DNA from: Planctomycetota bacterium
GTDB taxonomy: Bacteria; Planctomycetota; Phycisphaerae; Sedimentisphaerales; Anaerobacaceae
Reading direction: 5' to 3'
DNA: 64,000 nucleotides
Assembly (NCBI GenBank): GCA_030605475.1
Contig: JAUWIG010000048.1
Location: 1-64,000, forward strand
Shown: positions 18,297-51,693 of the stretch, piece by piece
Layout of the letters: the number at the start of each line of letters is the position of its first letter
Position numbering within the stretch: the stretch's first letter is position 1
The notes under the pieces: model-generated
The model's database searches: none
What the model was told of the DNA's origin: nothing
Seen by the model: only the letters and a program-made list of their open reading frames with translations
Program-made: the position numbers and the translations under genes

Positions 18297-18713
18297 AATA
18301 CCGAATTCGCCGTTCGCCATTCCGGCGGCGAATCAAATATCTGCCTGGCTTTCAAGCCGTAAAACAAAGAATAAGTCTCTCTCGGTTCCTGCCTTAACAA
18401 GCCTATACGGCAAGTGCAGAGACCCCATACTTCCGTTGGCCCAACAAGACCAATGGCTAACTTACAAAATTGGCTTTTCAATGTAAACATAGTAGTTTAC
18501 GAAACAAACAGTAAGAGTGCAAACATAAAAAATGCGAGAAAACGCAAAAAAACTAAAAAAAAACTAAAAAAACTGAAAATTTCTCGATTTTTTCCTTTTT
18601 GCAGAAAAATCACAAGGAAGAAGATTAGCCACAGAAACGCAGAGCATAATCAATTATCACCATTATTTATTTGGGTCATAGGTGTATAAGTTAAAACTCT
18701 CAGTTGTCAATAA
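18297..18713. other. 417-bp gap upstream of tRNA-Thr/tuf
   Basis: No convincing gene. It contains a GATTCGCCG-type hairpin (about 18304-18335), a second copy of the AAGACCAATGGCTAACTTAC motif (18445-18465), a weak minus-strand promoter candidate (TTTACA at 18482-18487, TAAGTT at 18459-18464, 17-bp spacing), a 10-bp-phased A-tract stretch (18517-18580) and an AGCCACAGAAACGCAGAG phrase of a type commonly dispersed in bacterial intergenic DNA. Confidence 0.55.
18517..18580. repeat. 10-bp-phased A-tracts upstream of tRNA-Thr/tuf
   Basis: Runs of 4-9 A separated by CT, CG or TG at about 10-bp intervals (AACTAAAAAA-type units). A-tracts in helical phase bend DNA. The stretch lies 220-280 bp upstream of tRNA-Thr. 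Confidence 0.55.
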
Positions 18714-21224: not shown

Positions 21225-21350
21225 TAAGTCATAAGTGCATAAGACACAAGAGCTAAGAGACAAGACTCAGGACATAAGCGTAGCTTTTGGTCATCGGTCT
21301 TTTGCTCTCGTGCTCTGTCGATTTCGAATTATCGATTATCAATAACGTTA
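21225..21350. repeat. Long heptad tract, ATAAGAC word family then TCGATTA family
   Basis: In the first part an AAG/AGG trinucleotide recurs at intervals of 7, 8, 7, 7, 7, 7 and 7 bp (TAAGTCA, TAAGTGC, ACAAGAG, CTAAGAG and so on). The second part (from 21291) changes words (CTCTCGT, GAATTAT, CGATTAT) and runs into the stop codon of the recombinase gene. Confidence 0.75.
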
Positions 21351-22286
21351 TGGCCTGGGGTGGAATTTTTTGTGAATACTTCGCAGCCTTTCCTGGTCGA
21401 CGTGTGTATAAATCTGGGTAGTGGCTATATCAACATGTCCGAGCATTTCCTGAATGCTTCGCAAATCGGCTCCGCCGGCCAACAGATGTGTTGCGAAGCA
21501 ATGCCTCAACGTATGGACGGTTAAATTTCTGGGCATACCCGCGCGAATTGCGTATTTTTTGACTAATCTCCAGATTTCGATTCGGCCCATAGGCCGACCT
21601 GTGCGGGATAGCAGCAGGTAATCGTTGCTGAACGGCTTGGCCAGTTTGGGACGCAGCCCTGTCAGATACTCGACTGTCGCGGCGATGGCGGCTTTGCCGA
21701 CCGGGATTATGCGCTCTCTATTACCCTTGCCCAGGCAGCGCAAATAGCCGATATCAATATTGAAATCGGGGATTTTCAGGCCGGCTAACTCGCTGGCACG
21801 TATGCCGGTGGCATAGAGCAATTCGAGCATTGCCCTGTCGCGAAGGTAAAAAGGCTCACTCGGTGAAGGAGCGTTAATGATATCGATAACCTGCTTTTTG
21901 CTGCAAATAGCGGGCAGTTTCTGCCAAGTCTTTGGGGTTTCAAGGGTTGTGGAGAAGTCGTCTTCGACAAGGCCGGTAAGTTTGGCAAATCGCAGGAACA
22001 TTCTTATAGCGACGAGAGAGCGCTTAATCGAGCTTTCGCCTTTATTGTCTGTGGTGAGGATTCGCAGATAGTTCTGTATAAGGGCCGGTTTTATTTGCTG
22101 TAACTGACTTATTTTACCGGACTTGCAGTATTTCAGGAAGCTTTTTAAATCGCGGCCGTAGGCCAAAATGGTGTTGGGGGACAGGCCGGCCTCGACGGTG
22201 AGAAAGCTTAGAAAATCTGTAGCGGCCCGGCCTAAGGGCAACGTAAGTAGTTTATCTGTAACAGATTGTGTCTGAGTCGGCGGCAC
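21348..22286 (-). CDS. xerD: XerD-like tyrosine recombinase
   Basis: A 312-residue phage-integrase-family recombinase. The N-terminal SAM-like core-binding domain (about 20-108) is followed by the catalytic domain. The six catalytic positions are visible: R163 (ATGIRASEL), K187 (GKGNRER), H258 and R261 (HTLRHCFATHLL), H284 (LGHVDIATTQIY) and Tyr293. Length and motifs fit chromosomal XerC/XerD, which resolve chromosome dimers at dif with FtsK. XerC versus XerD cannot be separated by eye. No attachment sites were recognised nearby, but the gene borders a small island (22.4-25.2 kb), so an integrase role is a possible alternative. Confidence 0.88.
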   Translation of the reverse strand: MPPTQTQSVTDKLLTLPLGRAATDFLSFLTVEAGLSPNTILAYGRDLKSFLKYCKSGKISQLQQIKPALIQNYLRILTTDNKGESSIKRSLVAIRMFLRFAKLTGLVEDDFSTTLETPKTWQKLPAICSKKQVIDIINAPSPSEPFYLRDRAMLELLYATGIRASELAGLKIPDFNIDIGYLRCLGKGNRERIIPVGKAAIAATVEYLTGLRPKLAKPFSNDYLLLSRTGRPMGRIEIWRLVKKYAIRAGMPRNLTVHTLRHCFATHLLAGGADLRSIQEMLGHVDIATTQIYTHVDQERLRSIHKKFHPRP

Positions 22287-22319: not shown

Positions 22320-22454
22320 AAACTTTAGGCACTTACGGTATCAATATCGGCGTTAAAACAAGCTAACCTTTAGTTGCGAATATGCGGTTAAAATAGGCAA
22401 GAATCAGCAGGGTCGGCGGTGAAAATTTCGAACAGACGCTCAAGTTAGAGTGAA

Positions 22455-22570
22455 AAATGCGCAAAAAATTGTAAAAAAGTGTGCAAAAATTGCAAGAAAT
22501 TGCAAGAAATTGCAAAAAAATGCAAGAAAGTGCAAGAAAATGCTAAAAAGTACGCTTTTTTGCACACTTT
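22455..22570. repeat. Left 10-bp-phased A-tract array (TGCAAGAAAT units)
   Basis: About eleven units of 10 bp, best seen from 22491 (TGCAAGAAAT twice, TGCAAAAAAA, TGCAAGAAAG, TGCAAGAAAA, TGCTAAAAAG). The period equals one helical turn, so curvature is expected. An array of the complementary words lies at 25099-25215. Confidence 0.85.
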
Positions 22571-22573
22571 TAG

Positions 22574-22619
22574 TTCATAGTTGGTAGTTCGTTGCTCGAT
22601 GCTTGATGCTCGTGGTAGG
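22574..22619. repeat. Heptad tract, CTCGATG/CTTGATG words
   Basis: TTCATAG, TTGGTAG, TTCGTTG, CTCGATG, CTTGATG and CTCGTGG in 7-bp register abut the A-tract array. Confidence 0.7.
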
Positions 22620-22805
22620 AGGGTGAAAAGTGGATAGCAAGGGTCAAGATTTAGCCACAGATTTCACTGATTGCACGGAAAAGTATAGCCATAAATTTTG
22701 CTTTGACGGGAATTGCGGTTTGGGGTAGTGTGTGGTTTGAAAGTCGAAGGTATCAGAAAAAAATGGTGGCTATATGCAAGAAAAAATAACAGAATCGTAA
22801 GGATT

Positions 22806-24689
22806 ATGGGAACGACTGCTGTGGAAATTAAATCATTTAGAATAAAGAATTATCGCTCAATAAAAGATAGCGGTGTGTGTTATCTGTCGGGCGATAATAT
22901 TACAATCTTAGCAGGAAAGAACGAGTCGGGGAAAACTGCAATTTTAGAAGCTCTGGAAGATTTTGATACAGAGGAAGAAATCAGAAAAGAAGCAATTCCT
23001 TACCACAATCCAGAAGCCGTGCCAGAAATAGCGGTGACTTTTGAAATAGACAAGGAAGCGCTTCAGGAAATTTCTGAGGAGATAGACTTTGAGCTAGAAA
23101 CGCTTAAATCGAGCGATATAGAAATTATAAAAAAATATCCGAAGGAGTATTCTGTTTCTGAAGAAAGTAAAAAAATGTTAGGTATAAGCGAGAAGGAGCT
23201 GTTAGGAAAAAAGGAAAAAGAAATCGCAGATACTTACAAACGAATTAAGAAAATCTATTCAAAAATTTCAGAGCCTAGTGGAATTTTGCCCGAAATAAAT
23301 GTCGACGACATTTCCAAGTTTAAAACCGAACTTGAGAATTTTCAGAATCAAACAGAAGCTGATTTGGAAAAAATACCCGATGAAGAAAAAAGGACTAACT
23401 TCGTAATAGGGCTTAATGAAATCGTATGCAACCTTGAGGAGATAGAGGGTTCAAGATCAGTAGAGCAAAAGTTCATTGACACAATAGCAACATACTGGAT
23501 TCCGAACTTCATTTTATTTATCTCCTTTGAGGATGTGTTCCCTTCGGAAGTGCCTTTGGGTGAAGCTGCTGATAACGAGTTAATTAAGGATCTGGCTATT
23601 ATCAGTGATTTAAATTTGGAACTGATTACATCCGATTCTATTGCTCTTAAAACAAAACACAAACAACAACTGAATGTGAGACTGAAAGAAGATTATCAGA
23701 AATTTTGGACGCAAGACCTTACAAATTTACATATAGAGTGGGATTCTGAGAAATTATATTTCCTTATTAAAGAAGACGAAGACTTTTATCCCCCGAGTTT
23801 ACGAAGCAAAGGGAAACAGTGGCATTTGGCATTTTATGTAAGAGTTGCTGCAAGGGCAAGGGAAGGCGTACCTAACATCATACTAATTGATGAACCAGGG
23901 CTCTTTCTTCATGCTAAAGCTCAAAAAGATGTTCTTAAGAGACTGGAGGATTCAGCTCAGGATGCACCAATCATTTTTTGTACTCACTCACCCTATTTAA
24001 TCAAAATTGGTAAGCTTGGTAGGATCCGCTTAATCTCACGAACTACGAAAAAAGGAACTCTTATTTCAAACAAAATCCATAAGGGGGCTGATAAGGAAAC
24101 TCTAACTCCAATAATAACAGCAATAGGTTTAGATTTGTCGATGGGCTTGGACATAGCAAAAGATAACAACGTTATTCTTGAAGGAATAACAGATTATTAC
24201 TACATATCAGCGTTTAAAGAGCTTCTCAACTACAGCTTCGATAAAGAGGTACACTTTATTCCAAGTGTAGGAGCGGATAAATTCAACTTTTTAGTGCCGT
24301 TAATGATTGGATGGGGATTAAATTACTGTTGTGTTTTAGATAATGATGACAAAGGAATACGCATAGAAAAGAAATTATTGGAGGATTTCGAGCACATAGG
24401 TGTTAAGACAAAATTGGTTGGCAAAAGCAAAGGTGAAGAGATAGAGGACTTATTTGAGAGGGAAGATTTTATCAAATATGTTTTAAATGAGAATTCTAAC
24501 GAAGTAGTAACCGACAAAAAGAATTCTGAGATAATTAAACAAAGAGATAGAAACTATGATAAAGTGTTACTGTCTAAATTGTTTTTAGAAAAAATAAAAG
24601 ACGGAGGTATTTCTCTTTCAGAAGATACGAAGGGAAACTTCAGAAATCTCCTCGAAGAAATAAATAGATTGATGTTTCCAAAAGTTTAG
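22806..24689 (+). CDS. OLD-family ATPase/TOPRIM nuclease (candidate phage defence)
   Basis: A 627-residue protein. An N-terminal ABC/SMC-type ATPase has Walker A GKNESGKT (37-44), a long Glu/Lys-rich helical insertion (about 80-225), a signature-like SLRSKGKQW (331-339), Walker B IILIDEP (358-364) and the switch histidine THSP (393-396). A C-terminal TOPRIM domain has Glu459 (ILEG) and the D512-x-D514 pair (LDNDDKG). This is the OLD (overcoming lysogenisation defect) architecture, whose members include phage-restriction nucleases. No UvrD-like partner gene is adjacent, so it is not a Gabija pair. The start at ATG 22806 has TAAGGA just upstream. An earlier in-frame TTG has no ribosome-binding site. 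It is A-rich compared with its neighbours, which suggests acquisition. Confidence 0.85.
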   Translation: MGTTAVEIKSFRIKNYRSIKDSGVCYLSGDNITILAGKNESGKTAILEALEDFDTEEEIRKEAIPYHNPEAVPEIAVTFEIDKEALQEISEEIDFELETLKSSDIEIIKKYPKEYSVSEESKKMLGISEKELLGKKEKEIADTYKRIKKIYSKISEPSGILPEINVDDISKFKTELENFQNQTEADLEKIPDEEKRTNFVIGLNEIVCNLEEIEGSRSVEQKFIDTIATYWIPNFILFISFEDVFPSEVPLGEAADNELIKDLAIISDLNLELITSDSIALKTKHKQQLNVRLKEDYQKFWTQDLTNLHIEWDSEKLYFLIKEDEDFYPPSLRSKGKQWHLAFYVRVAARAREGVPNIILIDEPGLFLHAKAQKDVLKRLEDSAQDAPIIFCTHSPYLIKIGKLGRIRLISRTTKKGTLISNKIHKGADKETLTPIITAIGLDLSMGLDIAKDNNVILEGITDYYYISAFKELLNYSFDKEVHFIPSVGADKFNFLVPLMIGWGLNYCCVLDNDDKGIRIEKKLLEDFEHIGVKTKLVGKSKGEEIEDLFEREDFIKYVLNENSNEVVTDKKNSEIIKQRDRNYDKVLLSKLFLEKIKDGGISLSEDTKGNFRNLLEEINRLMFPKV

Positions 24690-24743
24690 ATTGTCTTTGC
24701 CTATTACAATCAGGGCAAGTAAAGAAGTGGGGAGACCGCTTAA

Positions 24744-24757
24744 ATGTGTGAACACAT
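24744..24757. promoter_or_regulatory. Operator-like palindrome ATGTGT-GA-ACACAT
   Basis: Two perfect 6-bp arms around a 2-bp centre lie 84 bp before the methyltransferase remnant. It could be a regulator site of the former restriction-modification gene. Function not shown. Confidence 0.3.
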
Positions 24758-24840
24758 AGAAGGCTAATTCTGTATCGGTATAGTTTTTACATATACATAC
24801 TAAGTTTTAAGCGTAGGCGATCGTTTGCCGGAGATAATGT

Positions 24841-24951
24841 ATGACGAAAAACCGTTTGTACTGTGGGGATAATTTAGAAATACTGGCCACTATGGAAAAG
24901 GAAAGCGTTGACCTTATCTATATTGACCAGCAGTGGGGCGGTTTGAATTGA
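24841..24951 (+). pseudogene. Remnant of a site-specific DNA methyltransferase (N-terminal 36 codons)
   Basis: The ATG has GGAG 8 bp upstream and encodes MTKNRLYCGDNLEIL, then ESVDLIYIDQQW, then a stop. This is the start of the N4/N6 amino-methyltransferase family (normally LYYGDNLEIL...VDLIYIDPPF). The catalytic DPPF motif has become DQQW and the frame ends immediately afterwards, so it is non-functional. The gene has been truncated, and the following sequence is repeat DNA. It is likely a relic of a restriction-modification or methylation module that shared the island with the OLD gene. Confidence 0.8.
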
Positions 24952-25229
24952 TTATTTATTCTCAACACCACCCAAACAAAGCTTCGTGGGAAAAGTCATC
25001 CCCAAGCTTCGCTTGAGGCTGCCACCCAGTTGCTCCTTCGGGGTACGAGCCACGAGTCACGAAATGATCGACCATTTGCGCAGGGGGGTATGAAGAAAGT
25101 ACTCAAAAAGCGCACTTTTTAGCATTTTTTTGCATTTTTTACTTCATTTCTTGCAATTTTTACTCACTTTTTGGCACTTTCCTGCACTTTTTTGCAATTT
25201 TTCTGTACAACTTGCGCGTTTGATTGAAG
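24952..25229. other. Gap between methyltransferase remnant and mtaB
   Basis: No gene. It holds a short heptad phrase (TACGAGC, CACGAGT, CACGAAA near 25058-25078) and the right A-tract array (25099-25215). The join between the truncated methyltransferase and this DNA is probably a deletion endpoint. Confidence 0.5.
25099..25215. repeat. Right 10-bp-phased T-tract array (inverted relative to the left array)
   Basis: Units such as TGCATTTTTT, TTGCAATTTT, TTGGCACTTT and CCTGCACTTT every 10 bp are the reverse complement of the left array words (22455-22570). The array ends 15 bp from the mtaB stop codon. Confidence 0.85.
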
Positions 25230-26675
25230 TTATATCGCTTGACCAATTACCCCATTTTCGCTATTTTGAATCAGCTTTACTTTCAGCAGCTCGTTTTCTT
25301 TGAAGCACTTCTTTGTCTTTTCGAGGTGGACCGTAAAATATCTTTGGCTTCGCCCACAGGCTGGTGAGCAGGGGGGTGATGTTTCTGTTAAAACTGTATC
25401 GGTTTGGCTGATGAATTGCTGGCGGAATTTGTAGCCTAATTCGGCGTCGAGCTGGCGCAGTATTTTTGACCTTGTCTTCGTAACTCTGTTATCTACGGTG
25501 GGTTGCAAACCTGCTGCGGCGGTGCCTTTACGTGGCGAAAAGCTGAAAACGTGCATTTTTGCAAAGCCGGCATCTTTCGCTAAATCGACGGTCGCTTTGA
25601 AGTCAGCATCCGTTTCACCCGGAAAACCAACGATAATGTCAACGGTTATGGCAGGCCTGTCGAGCCGGGATTTGATTAGCTCAACTTTCTCTTTGAATTC
25701 GTCGGCGCTGTATTGTCTGCGCATCTTTTTCAGGATTGCGTTTGAGCCCGACTGCAGTGATAAGTGCAGATGTGGCATAATGTTATGGTGTTTGCAGAAA
25801 GTATCGAGTAATCCCGGCGTTACATCGCCCGGCTCTAATGAGCTAAGTCTGACCCTTGCAAGATTTGGTATTTCTGCCAGTTTGTCGAGCAGCTCAACGA
25901 GTTGTCCGTTTGTCCGGCTGTCCCAGTTTTTTCGTCTCACGCTTCTTCGGCCGTAAGCCCCGAGGCATATTCCTGTTACGACGATTTCCTTATGTCCGGC
26001 TTCAACAAGCTCTTGCGCCTCCTTGATGACCGCCTCGGCGGGCTTGCTGTGAACAAAAGGGCGGGTTTTGGGTATGATACAATAGCTGCAGTAGCCGTCG
26101 CAGCCATCCTGAACTTTAAGAAATGCCCTGGTATGGCCCTTAAATGATGTTAATGGTGATAGTTTAAGCTGGTTGGTTAGCTTGTTTTTACACTTGATTT
26201 CGGGGTCATTTTCCGCTTTAATGGTGCTGTTTTCGTGGATTTTGGGGCATTTTGAATTAGTGGTGGTCCCGTGCCTATGCACAGGGGCGGGGTTGGCTGT
26301 TCGGCTTAGCGCAGCAGCGTTCAAAGCGGCAGCTTTGGTGGTGGTTATTCGATTTAAGGTGTCAGCGAGGTTGTTTCGATGTCTAATAAGATGGATGTTT
26401 TTATCTGGATTGCCTAATTCGCCGATTTCTACAGTAGGCAGACAGCCGGAAACGATTATAGCCGCGTCAGGGCTTAGCCTTTGTGCTTTTCGGATGTATC
26501 GTCTGCTTTTGGCTGAGGCGGTATGAGTAACGCAGCAGGTATTGATAACAATCAGGTCGGGTTTTTTAGACGTTTCGACCTGTTCGAGCCCGAGCCGCTC
26601 GAGCAGCTCTCGAATCTGCTGACTTTCATATTGATTGACTTTGCAGCCAAATGTATTTATGGAAAAAGTTTTCAT
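25230..26675 (-). CDS. mtaB: MtaB-like tRNA (N6-threonylcarbamoyladenosine) methylthiotransferase
   Basis: A radical-SAM methylthiotransferase of 481 residues, predicted to convert t6A37 to ms2t6A37 in tRNAs. The N-terminal domain has the three cluster cysteines in FGCKVNQ (C11), NTCCVT and SGCLP. The radical-SAM triad CDGYCSYC follows in KVQDGCDGYCSYC. NTFGCKVNQYES and the late SLEPGDVTP and IIVGFPGETDADF motifs favour MtaB over MiaB or RimO. Between about residues 105 and 178 there is an unusually long Thr/Ala/Asn-rich linker, where relatives have roughly half as many residues. The gene starts 104 bp from, and divergent to, the PilM-PilN fusion gene. Confidence 0.88.
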   Translation of the reverse strand: MKTFSINTFGCKVNQYESQQIRELLERLGLEQVETSKKPDLIVINTCCVTHTASAKSRRYIRKAQRLSPDAAIIVSGCLPTVEIGELGNPDKNIHLIRHRNNLADTLNRITTTKAAALNAAALSRTANPAPVHRHGTTTNSKCPKIHENSTIKAENDPEIKCKNKLTNQLKLSPLTSFKGHTRAFLKVQDGCDGYCSYCIIPKTRPFVHSKPAEAVIKEAQELVEAGHKEIVVTGICLGAYGRRSVRRKNWDSRTNGQLVELLDKLAEIPNLARVRLSSLEPGDVTPGLLDTFCKHHNIMPHLHLSLQSGSNAILKKMRRQYSADEFKEKVELIKSRLDRPAITVDIIVGFPGETDADFKATVDLAKDAGFAKMHVFSFSPRKGTAAAGLQPTVDNRVTKTRSKILRQLDAELGYKFRQQFISQTDTVLTETSPPCSPACGRSQRYFTVHLEKTKKCFKENELLKVKLIQNSENGVIGQAI

Positions 26676-36813: not shown

Positions 36814-37677
36814 TTACTGAACTTTTTGTGTCCATTTTCTGCCGTTCATTTCAAACTCAACGCTACGTTTATTTATCTTTATGATGGTTGCACCTGATAT
36901 TTTGTCACCCACATACAGTATTTGACCGCTAATCATTGCGCATGGGTTATCCTTGCTATAGACAATGGCCTTTACGATTAGTTTGCCTGATGTATCGGTT
37001 TGGCTCTGAGCAATCGAAACCGAGCCGAATTGCGTAGGGTCGCGAAGCCTTGTCGGATAAGGTTCCGGAATCTGCCAATCAATTTCATGCTCAGAACCAG
37101 CAACGACTTTTGTCGGCTTAAAACTGTGAAGCTCACCTGTTTTGCCCGAAGGCGTGCTCAGTACCAGTGTAAGCATAAAAATCAAGAGGATAAAGAGAAC
37201 GGGCACCGATATCAGCACTACTTTTTGCTTTGTGGCACTGACGCCCGGTTTTGGTGTAAGTAGTTTGTCTTTTATTTGTTGCCAGGCCTGTTGCCAAGGG
37301 GCTTGTTTTGCAGCTTTTATGGTAACATCAACTTCAGGGGGTTTAAGTAGAGCAGCTTCGAGTTTGGGTGGAGTAACTTCAGGTGATTTAGGCGGAGCAG
37401 CTTCAGGTTGTTCGGGTGTAGCAGTTTCAGGTTGTTCGGGCGGAGCGGCTTCGGATTGTTTGGGTGGAGTAACTTCAGGTGGTGGCTGGGTAGGTTGCTG
37501 AGATTCTGGCGCCGGCGAAGTTGGTTGGTCTGGAGCAGGTGGTTTCGAAGGGGCGTGGTTAGCGCAGTGCGGTGTAGGCGCGCCAGAAGACTGCTGGGCG
37601 TCGCTTTTTTTCGGAATCGGCACGCCATCAAAAATCACTGAAATTTCTTTGTGCAACCCTGTTCTATGTTTTGGCAT
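36814..37677 (-). CDS. PilP/GspB-like proline-rich membrane protein
   Basis: 287 residues: a cytoplasmic Pro/Glu/Ala-rich stretch (about 40-115, with repeated PEQPE and PPK words), one membrane helix (about 152-170), then a periplasmic C-terminal domain with MISGQILYVGDKISGATII and VEFEMNGRKW. That last block resembles the homology domain of PilP/GspB/GspC proteins, which link the inner-membrane platform to the secretin. Its place directly before the secretin gene fits. Its start overlaps the end of the ParA gene by 14 bp, so translation is probably coupled. Confidence 0.72.
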   Translation of the reverse strand: MPKHRTGLHKEISVIFDGVPIPKKSDAQQSSGAPTPHCANHAPSKPPAPDQPTSPAPESQQPTQPPPEVTPPKQSEAAPPEQPETATPEQPEAAPPKSPEVTPPKLEAALLKPPEVDVTIKAAKQAPWQQAWQQIKDKLLTPKPGVSATKQKVVLISVPVLFILLIFMLTLVLSTPSGKTGELHSFKPTKVVAGSEHEIDWQIPEPYPTRLRDPTQFGSVSIAQSQTDTSGKLIVKAIVYSKDNPCAMISGQILYVGDKISGATIIKINKRSVEFEMNGRKWTQKVQ

Positions 37678-38578
37678 TACTTATCTCCTCAGCCGAAGCC
37701 ACGTCATTGATTATCTCCTCAGCCGAAGCGTCGTTATTACTTATCTCCTCAGCCAGAGCGTCGTTATTACTTATCTCCTCAGCCGGAGCGTTGTCATTAC
37801 TTATGTCCTCAGCCGGAGCCCTGCCATTGATTATCTCCTCAGCCAAAGCCTTGTATTCAGCAGCACCTTTGCTTTGTGGAGCGTAAGTCAAAACAGGCTC
37901 ACCGGCACTTGGCGCTTCAGCCAGCCTTACAGTTCTGTGAATGACCGTATCAAATACCAAGCTGCCGAAAAGTTCCCTCATCTGTCTTTGTATTTGTCTG
38001 CTCAATGTTGTCCTGCTTTCGACGAAGGTCAGCAGCATGCAAGGTGTTTCCAGGCGTTGATTGAAGCGTTCCCTAATGATTGCTATGGTCTTAAGTAGTT
38101 GTTTTAGCCCCTCGAGAGCATAATAATGTGCCTGAATTGGTATTATTACATCAGTGCTCGCTACCAGGGCGTTCAACGTCAACAGACTAAGCGACGGTGA
38201 GCAATCAATAACGCATATCTCATAATTGCCATCTATATTGGCAAGCTGCCGGCTTAGTACGTATTCTCTTTCGTGTAGCGTTGCCAACTCATACTCGACG
38301 CCGGAGAGCAAAATATTGCTCGGAGCCAGATTAAGCCATCTCTCGCCGGTGCTTAGCACCACGTTGGAGATGGGAATTTGCGCATTGGTAAGAGTGTCAT
38401 AGATGGTTTTATCCAACGTCTCAGGGTCATAGCCAAATCCCAGTGTGGAGTGGGCCTGGGCGTCGAGGTCAATTAGCAGCACCCTCACGTTTTTTTGCGC
38501 AAAGGCGGCAGCGAGGTTCACTGCTGTAGTTGTTTTGCCGCAACCACCCTTTTGATTTGTTATTGCTATTGTTTTCAT
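37664..38578 (-). CDS. ParA/MinD-type ATPase with C-terminal decapeptide repeats
   Basis: 304 residues. It starts at MKTIAITNQKGGCGKTTTAVNLA (deviant Walker A KGGCGKTT). Switch I/Walker A' VLLIDLDAQAHSTLGF and Walker B YEICVIDCSPSLSLLTLNAL complete a ParA/Soj ATPase. After the ATPase core the last ~60 residues are six copies of a ten-residue AEEISNNDAS-like repeat, encoded by exact 30-bp DNA units. No parB-like gene is adjacent. The gene is embedded between pilO-like and pilP-like genes and overlaps the latter, so it may place or count pilus/secretion complexes, as ParA-like proteins do for other envelope machines. That role is inference. Confidence 0.85.
   Translation of the reverse strand: MKTIAITNQKGGCGKTTTAVNLAAAFAQKNVRVLLIDLDAQAHSTLGFGYDPETLDKTIYDTLTNAQIPISNVVLSTGERWLNLAPSNILLSGVEYELATLHEREYVLSRQLANIDGNYEICVIDCSPSLSLLTLNALVASTDVIIPIQAHYYALEGLKQLLKTIAIIRERFNQRLETPCMLLTFVESRTTLSRQIQRQMRELFGSLVFDTVIHRTVRLAEAPSAGEPVLTYAPQSKGAAEYKALAEEIINGRAPAEDISNDNAPAEEISNNDALAEEISNNDASAEEIINDVASAEEISNAKT
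37681..37860. repeat. Six 30-bp tandem repeats at the 3' end of the ParA gene
   Basis: Units begin TTATCTCCTCAGCC at 37681, 37711, 37741, 37771, 37801 (one G for C) and 37831, exactly 30 bp apart. They encode an acidic ten-residue peptide. The copy number is likely variable between strains. Confidence 0.93.
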
Positions 38579-51545: not shown

Positions 51546-51605
51546 AATGTTTATCTGACAAAAATAATGTTTATCTGACAAAAATAATGTTCATCTGACA
51601 AAAAT
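51546..51605. repeat. Three tandem 20-bp repeats
   Basis: Units begin AATGTTTATCTGAC at 51546, 51566 and 51586 (the third has one T-to-C change). They are directly adjacent without spacers, so this is not CRISPR. Confidence 0.92.
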
Positions 51606-51693
51606 ATAACATGCACCCGATGCTCTTATTATCCCTACATTGGCTACAAAGAATATTTTTGTTAGTCTGCCGAGTCTTTAAGGGAGCAGTTAA

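Follow-up and report, generated by a model that had tools for sequence, protein, structure and literature searches.

Two mutually inverted arrays of A-tracts, each with 10 tracts spaced approximately 10 bp apart, bracket an OLD-family gene together with a methyltransferase-like remnant. Are these arrays the two ends of one mobile unit, or boundary DNA beside which accessory genes come to lie? We addressed this question in the 64,000-nucleotide stretch that holds them (the window), in the rest of its genome (G000, 2.4 Mb), and in related genomes of the same family.

The inverted arrays and their 10-bp period, first noticed by reading the letters, are recovered by two programs. Tandem Repeats Finder reports a 10-bp unit in both the left array (8.8 copies, 22461–22549) and the right array (8.9 copies, 25112–25202), and the arms of the two are 72–91 per cent complementary. 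A detector of A-tract chains (A- or T-tracts of at least 3, situated 9–12 bp apart) finds 10 tracts at 22453–22549 on the A strand and 10 at 25116–25221 on the T strand, the top two chain lengths in the window, and no chain of at least seven in 10 first-order Markov sequences of 64 kb (equivalent to 1.28 Mb, as both strands were counted). The window also contains tandem repeats of other kinds: repeats of 24 and 30 bp at 37362–37481 and 37675–37851, which have in-frame length and probably encode a repetitive protein segment, and three near-perfect copies of a 20-bp repeat, AATGTTTATCTGACAAAAAT, at 51546–51606. An Rfam search returned tRNAs only.

Between the arrays, the gene at 22812–24689 (plus strand) has the AAA_15 and OLD-like TOPRIM domains of OLD/GajA-like proteins, as the sequence-only reading had proposed, and is accessory cargo: no relative was found in six other genera searched. 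The ‘truncated DNA methyltransferase’ of the same reading fared less well, being a 36-codon open reading frame (ORF; 24841–24951, plus strand) that resembles the start of an N6/N4-methyltransferase by eye only and has no match in a Pfam search. The arrays are flanked on the outside by two core genes on the minus strand, xerD (21348–22286; present in 58 of 60 family genomes) and an mtaB-like gene (25230–26675; in 53 of 60).

Copies, ends, and curvature of the element

As a DNA query against its own genome, a 58-contig assembly of which the stretches around the matches were read, the left array yielded 33 matches at approximately 31 distinct places. Most copies are solitary, and the search for further pairs like that of the window came back empty: only three pairs lie within 3 kb, and the two besides the inward-facing window pair (on contigs C39 and C32) face outward around core genes. 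Judged with a weak codon-based gene finder, none of the approximately 31 copies lies inside a coding gene.

Each array forms its own element of approximately 140–160 bp with conserved ends (TCAATCAAATGCGCAAG ... ACCCCCCTGCGCATTTGATTGA), in which a pair of short inverted ends, built around a GCGC core, encloses the helically phased A-tracts. The left end, TTCAATCAWWYGCGCAAG, has 26 matches in the genome at up to two mismatches, most of them adjoining an array, against none for the reversed control; the right end, where retained, reads ACCCCCCTGCGCAAATGATTGA, and many copies terminate in the palindrome GTGCGC-TTTTTT-GCGCAC with flanking T-runs. In genome G062, from another genus, approximately 20 copies were found by search, most of them full-length (approximately 150–160 bp), 79–90 per cent alike, and sharply delimited by GGGTAGCACCAAACGCGCAAGTT ... 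AATTTTTTACCCCCCTGCGCATTTGATTGA. Both element ends carry sequence of the TCAAATGCGCA type, which in the loci is almost confined to element ends and is seen at those of most G062 copies; terminal inverted repeats are therefore present. Genome G014, of the same genus as G062, has identical ends around a different unit (AAACTTACAC in place of AAATTGCTAA).

In the window, the left element (plus strand) begins with TTCGAACAGACGCTCAAG (22427–22444), a diverged form of the TTCAATCAAATGCGCAAG / TTCGAACAGAATGCGCAAG terminus that is intact at other copies. It continues with the phased array (22453–22570) and closes with the inverted repeat AAAAGTACGC-TTTTTT-GCACACTTTT (22546–22571), whose GCGC-like right arm corresponds to the reduced right terminus found in other copies. 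The right element (minus strand) starts 2 bp past the mtaB stop codon with the left terminus TCAATCAAACGCGCAAG (25211–25227), followed by the phased array (25105–25221) and the right terminus ACCCCCCTGCGCAAAT (25074–25089). The two window arrays are 78 per cent alike, which is no closer than either is to other copies. By eye, no target-site duplication is visible at the two outer ends of the pair.

The spacing of the A-tracts averages 10.22 bp over all copies in the window's genome and remains at 10.2–10.4 bp across genomes, though the repeat units change. The strong intrinsic curvature attributed to the arrays is borne out insofar as the predicted values are high, in a wedge-parameter model, and is not peculiar to them, with other peaks in the window at least as strong. 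The top predicted curvature in the window belongs to an 8-tract A-chain with AAAAAAACTAA repeats at 18502–18579, between the tRNA-Thr/EF-Tu region and the next gene, which is not of this element family.

Some copies depart from the common form. Those at C7:26953 and C45:1573 of the window's genome carry the same palindromic insertion of approximately 32 bp, ACCATTAGAGACTCTTCTCTAACGGCATAA, at the same spot within the left end, and the copy beside menA in G014 carries a different insertion of approximately 31 bp at that spot; tiny mobile palindromes seem to target the left end of the element. At five loci of genome G053 (L258, L264, L272, L278, and L281), the interior consists of A-tracts, T-tracts, and G-runs (GCGGTTAAAGTGGGGCAAAACACGGGCGCTTTGGGG) in an alternation of approximately 11 bp, and two elements in that genome stand in tandem. 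When 84,980 named genomes were scanned with the left end followed by TTG, eight matches came up, none of them near an array; we reject these as chance matches. The right end has no match among viral contigs, and hence there is no sign of a phage origin in that search.

The element sits between a conserved core gene and variable accessory DNA

The element is polar. Similarity of repeats between copies ends within approximately 150 bp leftward and extends 200–800 bp rightward as a mosaic of short repeats, which in the window are found almost only adjoining the arrays. One such mosaic (AGTTCATAGTTCGTAGTTC...) occupies 22572–22616 on the plus strand, and the same kind of sequence lies on the right side of other arrays. 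Directly after the right end, there and at many other loci (e.g. L091 and L155), these mosaics have a period of approximately 7–9 and words such as AGTTCATAGTTCGTAG, AAGACCCAAGACACAAGACTC, and CCACAGAGAACACAGAG. Nine arrays are situated no more than 0.55 kb from a contig end, which is always on their right side.

The flanking genes are divided in the same way. When genes beside the copies in the window's genome were looked for in six other genera, 86 of 108 gene-by-genome combinations were positive for left genes (18 genes, picked for clear ORFs) and 17 of 114 for right genes. In an independent test on 22 elements of G062, in which a fixed rule picked, to either side, the closest ORF of 130 codons or more, the counts were 85 of 120 on the left, excluding one ORF antisense to rodA and one duplicate, and 18 of 132 on the right (Fisher test; P-value = 4e-21), the right-side matches being largely to repeated surface domains. 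Both tests used longest-ORF rules rather than a trained gene finder, after a codon-usage finder had proved weak, and the match counts from concatenated queries take in a few paralogues.

Left genes are housekeeping genes (LpxB, LeuA, PanB, CoaE, and FolC types), and in the window's genome include miaB, lpxB, leuA, menA, feoB, rodA, capD, tsaB, a sigma factor gene, mtaB, and others, most of them named by eye. To the right lie genes for the OLD protein, a type IIG restriction enzyme, PADLOC PDC-S45 and PDC-M30A candidates, a HEPN protein, a DNA methylase, a PAPS-reductase-type protein, a kinase, and surface proteins, along with unremarkable neighbors such as agmatinase and BrkB. The rule is not absolute, as one G062 element has xerD 4.5 kb to its right. 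Nonetheless, of the two roles first suggested for the arrays, that of curved boundary DNA at which insertions gather is supported and can be generalized: copy by copy in two genomes, core DNA lies to the left and variable, often defence-type DNA to the right.

The direction of the neighboring genes is disregarded by the element. Among right genes, those directed at the array and those directed away from it are similar in number (13:7 and 8:14), and elements also occur between divergent genes. In the complete genome of a relative (G010), a check of replication orientation by sampled GC skew gave no clear origin or terminus.

The DNA on the right is exchangeable, so that a core gene on one side faces replaceable cargo on the other, as at the border of an integration hotspot. 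At two loci (C24/L284 and C47/L290), the same core genes flank different cargo in the window's genome and in G062, with synteny restored 3.4–4.6 kb rightward. Conversely, arrays at separate loci have the same modules on their right: a TcmP/DUF5131-like module on contig C57 of the window's genome and contig C120 of G053 (70–74 per cent identity), and a BlaI-M56 module on C7 of the former and C11 of G018. The TcmP-like (PADLOC PDC-M30A) plus DUF5131-like module, present in two genera (L032, 5595–8000, and L278), is a candidate defence cassette. A search of the distal edge of the cargo zones gave no element ends, which makes the element a border and not an end of the cargo. Searches for an empty site or a target duplication found neither, and rightward insertion is thus something that we infer.

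Place and polarity are kept across genera while the interior is rewritten within each genome

Phased arrays adjoin the 3' end of mtaB in G010, G059/G003, G018, G052, and G062, and weaker ones were recognized by eye in G015, G053, G008, and G001, each with its own repeat unit. Wherever the flank of these arrays was read, the OLD gene was absent. None of 29 relatives shows an array upstream of xerD. The expectation that both arrays would come and go with the DNA they enclose therefore fails, as the right array occurs in other genera without the island and the left one is missing in the relatives read. Most of 29 relatives from other genera keep the motif TATCGGCGTTAAAACAAGCTAACCTTTAG (22345–22373 in the window) ahead of xerD, though the neighboring gene changes; this motif may serve as promoter, as operator, or as a dif-like site.

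Beyond this locus, 18 array-flanking genes of the window's genome were searched in six other genera, and approximately 20 of approximately 80 orthologous flanks have a chain of at least seven tracts on the expected side, nearly all of them in the same polarity. For background, a random 280 kb of G010 contains one array and one T-rich chain of another kind. Additionally, 11 of the 22 G062 elements share their left gene with an element of the window's genome, where approximately 0.3 would be expected (a rough figure, from 31 and 22 elements and 2000 genes). The element thus keeps its place and its polarity across genera.

The sequence between the ends behaves differently. Identity among copies is 0.84 within the window's genome and 0.84 within G062, and between the two genomes it is 0.748 for orthologous and 0.747 for non-orthologous copies, close to a shuffled baseline of 0.69. 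Because orthologous copies are no more alike than unrelated ones, the interior holds no memory of its locus and is homogenized per genome. At the menA locus of G014 and G062, the gene start and both element ends align, the interior differs, and the DNA to the right is wholly different. The arrays at C3:86505 and C4:22 of the window's genome (L038, 5006–5136, and L037, 1–131) are identical, have different left flanks, and both reach contig ends; their identity could be due to recent gene conversion or to assembly overlap.

The enterobacterial small intergenic repeats (ERIC/IRU, REP/BIME, and RU) resemble the element in being approximately 100–170 bp long, intergenic, and dispersed in tens of copies with imperfect inverted ends. 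However, those families keep a recognizable sequence across species, whereas here conservation is limited to the ends, the position, and the 10-bp phase, the interior is replaced per genome, and each copy sits with fixed polarity between core and accessory DNA. Staphylococcal STAR elements are likewise intergenic arrays of short repeats with lineage-specific content, but their locations differ between species and their loci keep distinct sequences (PMC3532100). The element described here is the reverse on both counts, with locations common to genera (11 of 22) and loci without sequence memory.

A proposed polar boundary and its alternatives

We propose that the element is a polar, curved-DNA boundary at core/accessory borders, which marks where incoming DNA enters or is tolerated; we put the probability of this reading at roughly 60 per cent, and its boundary aspect is strongly supported by the polarity. 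Right genes pointing either way and elements between divergent genes argue against a classical terminator or promoter and for a role at the level of DNA, at which the bent array would act. A nucleoid or recombination protein probably binds the array, with the GCGC ends as its sites and the conserved GCGC core as a candidate attachment core. Incoming DNA would be inserted or tolerated immediately to the right, leaving the left core gene intact, and with time cargo (OLD, type IIG restriction–modification, TcmP-type, and surface proteins) and scars of short repeats would build up rightward only. The window pair consists of the outward-facing borders of two core blocks, the xerD side and the mtaB side, which meet over one variable zone with the OLD gene.

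A selfish, MITE-like, non-autonomous transposon that re-expands in each lineage into the same permissive hotspots at the edges of core blocks, with a functionless array, would account for several of these observations. Like MITEs and other IS-derived elements, the element is non-coding and multicopy with short inverted ends; its approximately 150-bp copies are dispersed, intergenic, and alike within a genome; and both the shared 32-bp palindromic insertion in copies at two loci and the tandem elements of G053 fit such a history. We nevertheless consider it unlikely, since core genes and polarity are shared across genera far more often than expected, the A-tract phase is retained while the unit changes, no target-site duplication was seen, and within 6 kb the ends of the 22 G062 copies and 31 copies in the window's genome flank neither cargo nor a transposase partner.

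Rather doubtful, too, is a transcriptional insulator or terminator that keeps transcription in the variable zone from reading through into core genes. Its appeal lies in the terminal palindrome and T-runs, in a polarity that always faces the variable side, and in the composition of the reverse strand, which is C/U-rich, as Rho sites are. Against it, elements occur between divergent promoters, right-side gene direction is unbiased, folding z-scores near −3 are explained by TGC/GCA words, and neither array gave a hit when the island was scanned for terminators (in terminator and promoter scans alike, nothing exceeded shuffled sequences).

That the arrays serve as terminal inverted repeats for a single 2.8-kb, OLD-carrying mobile element, the other role first suggested for them and one that their inversion, matched length, and enclosed accessory gene invite, is very hard to credit, given that each array has its own inverted ends, the approximately 31 copies are mostly single, the mtaB array exists in other genera without the OLD gene, cargo zones lack a second copy at their far ends, and the two arrays resemble each other no more than they resemble other copies.

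Returning to the polar boundary, its nearest counterparts include the well-known integration hotspots and defence islands, such as those of Escherichia coli, where variable and partly defence-related cargo likewise lies between conserved core genes (PMC10121019); here, however, one element family marks approximately 30 borders with fixed polarity. A literature search, in which subscription journals were sparsely covered, found no description of such elements or of a multicopy element marking hotspots. To our knowledge, no shared multicopy DNA element is known at the borders of such hotspots.

In keeping its position while its sequence is rewritten, the element offers a clear example of concerted evolution in dispersed bacterial intergenic DNA. 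More tentatively, it is possible that each chromosome vertically maintains a set of approximately 20–30 polar, curved-DNA landing sites that steer accessory and defence genes to a single side of core gene blocks, with the sequence of these sites rewritten together in each genome, presumably to keep pace with a rapidly changing DNA-binding protein. Most known hotspots lack a common DNA signature, and what makes accessory and defence genes cluster at few places among the core genes is an open question. In this family, approximately 30 such spots per genome share one recognizable polar element, which makes the question testable, and in practice one should find defence and other cargo genes by reading rightward from each element.
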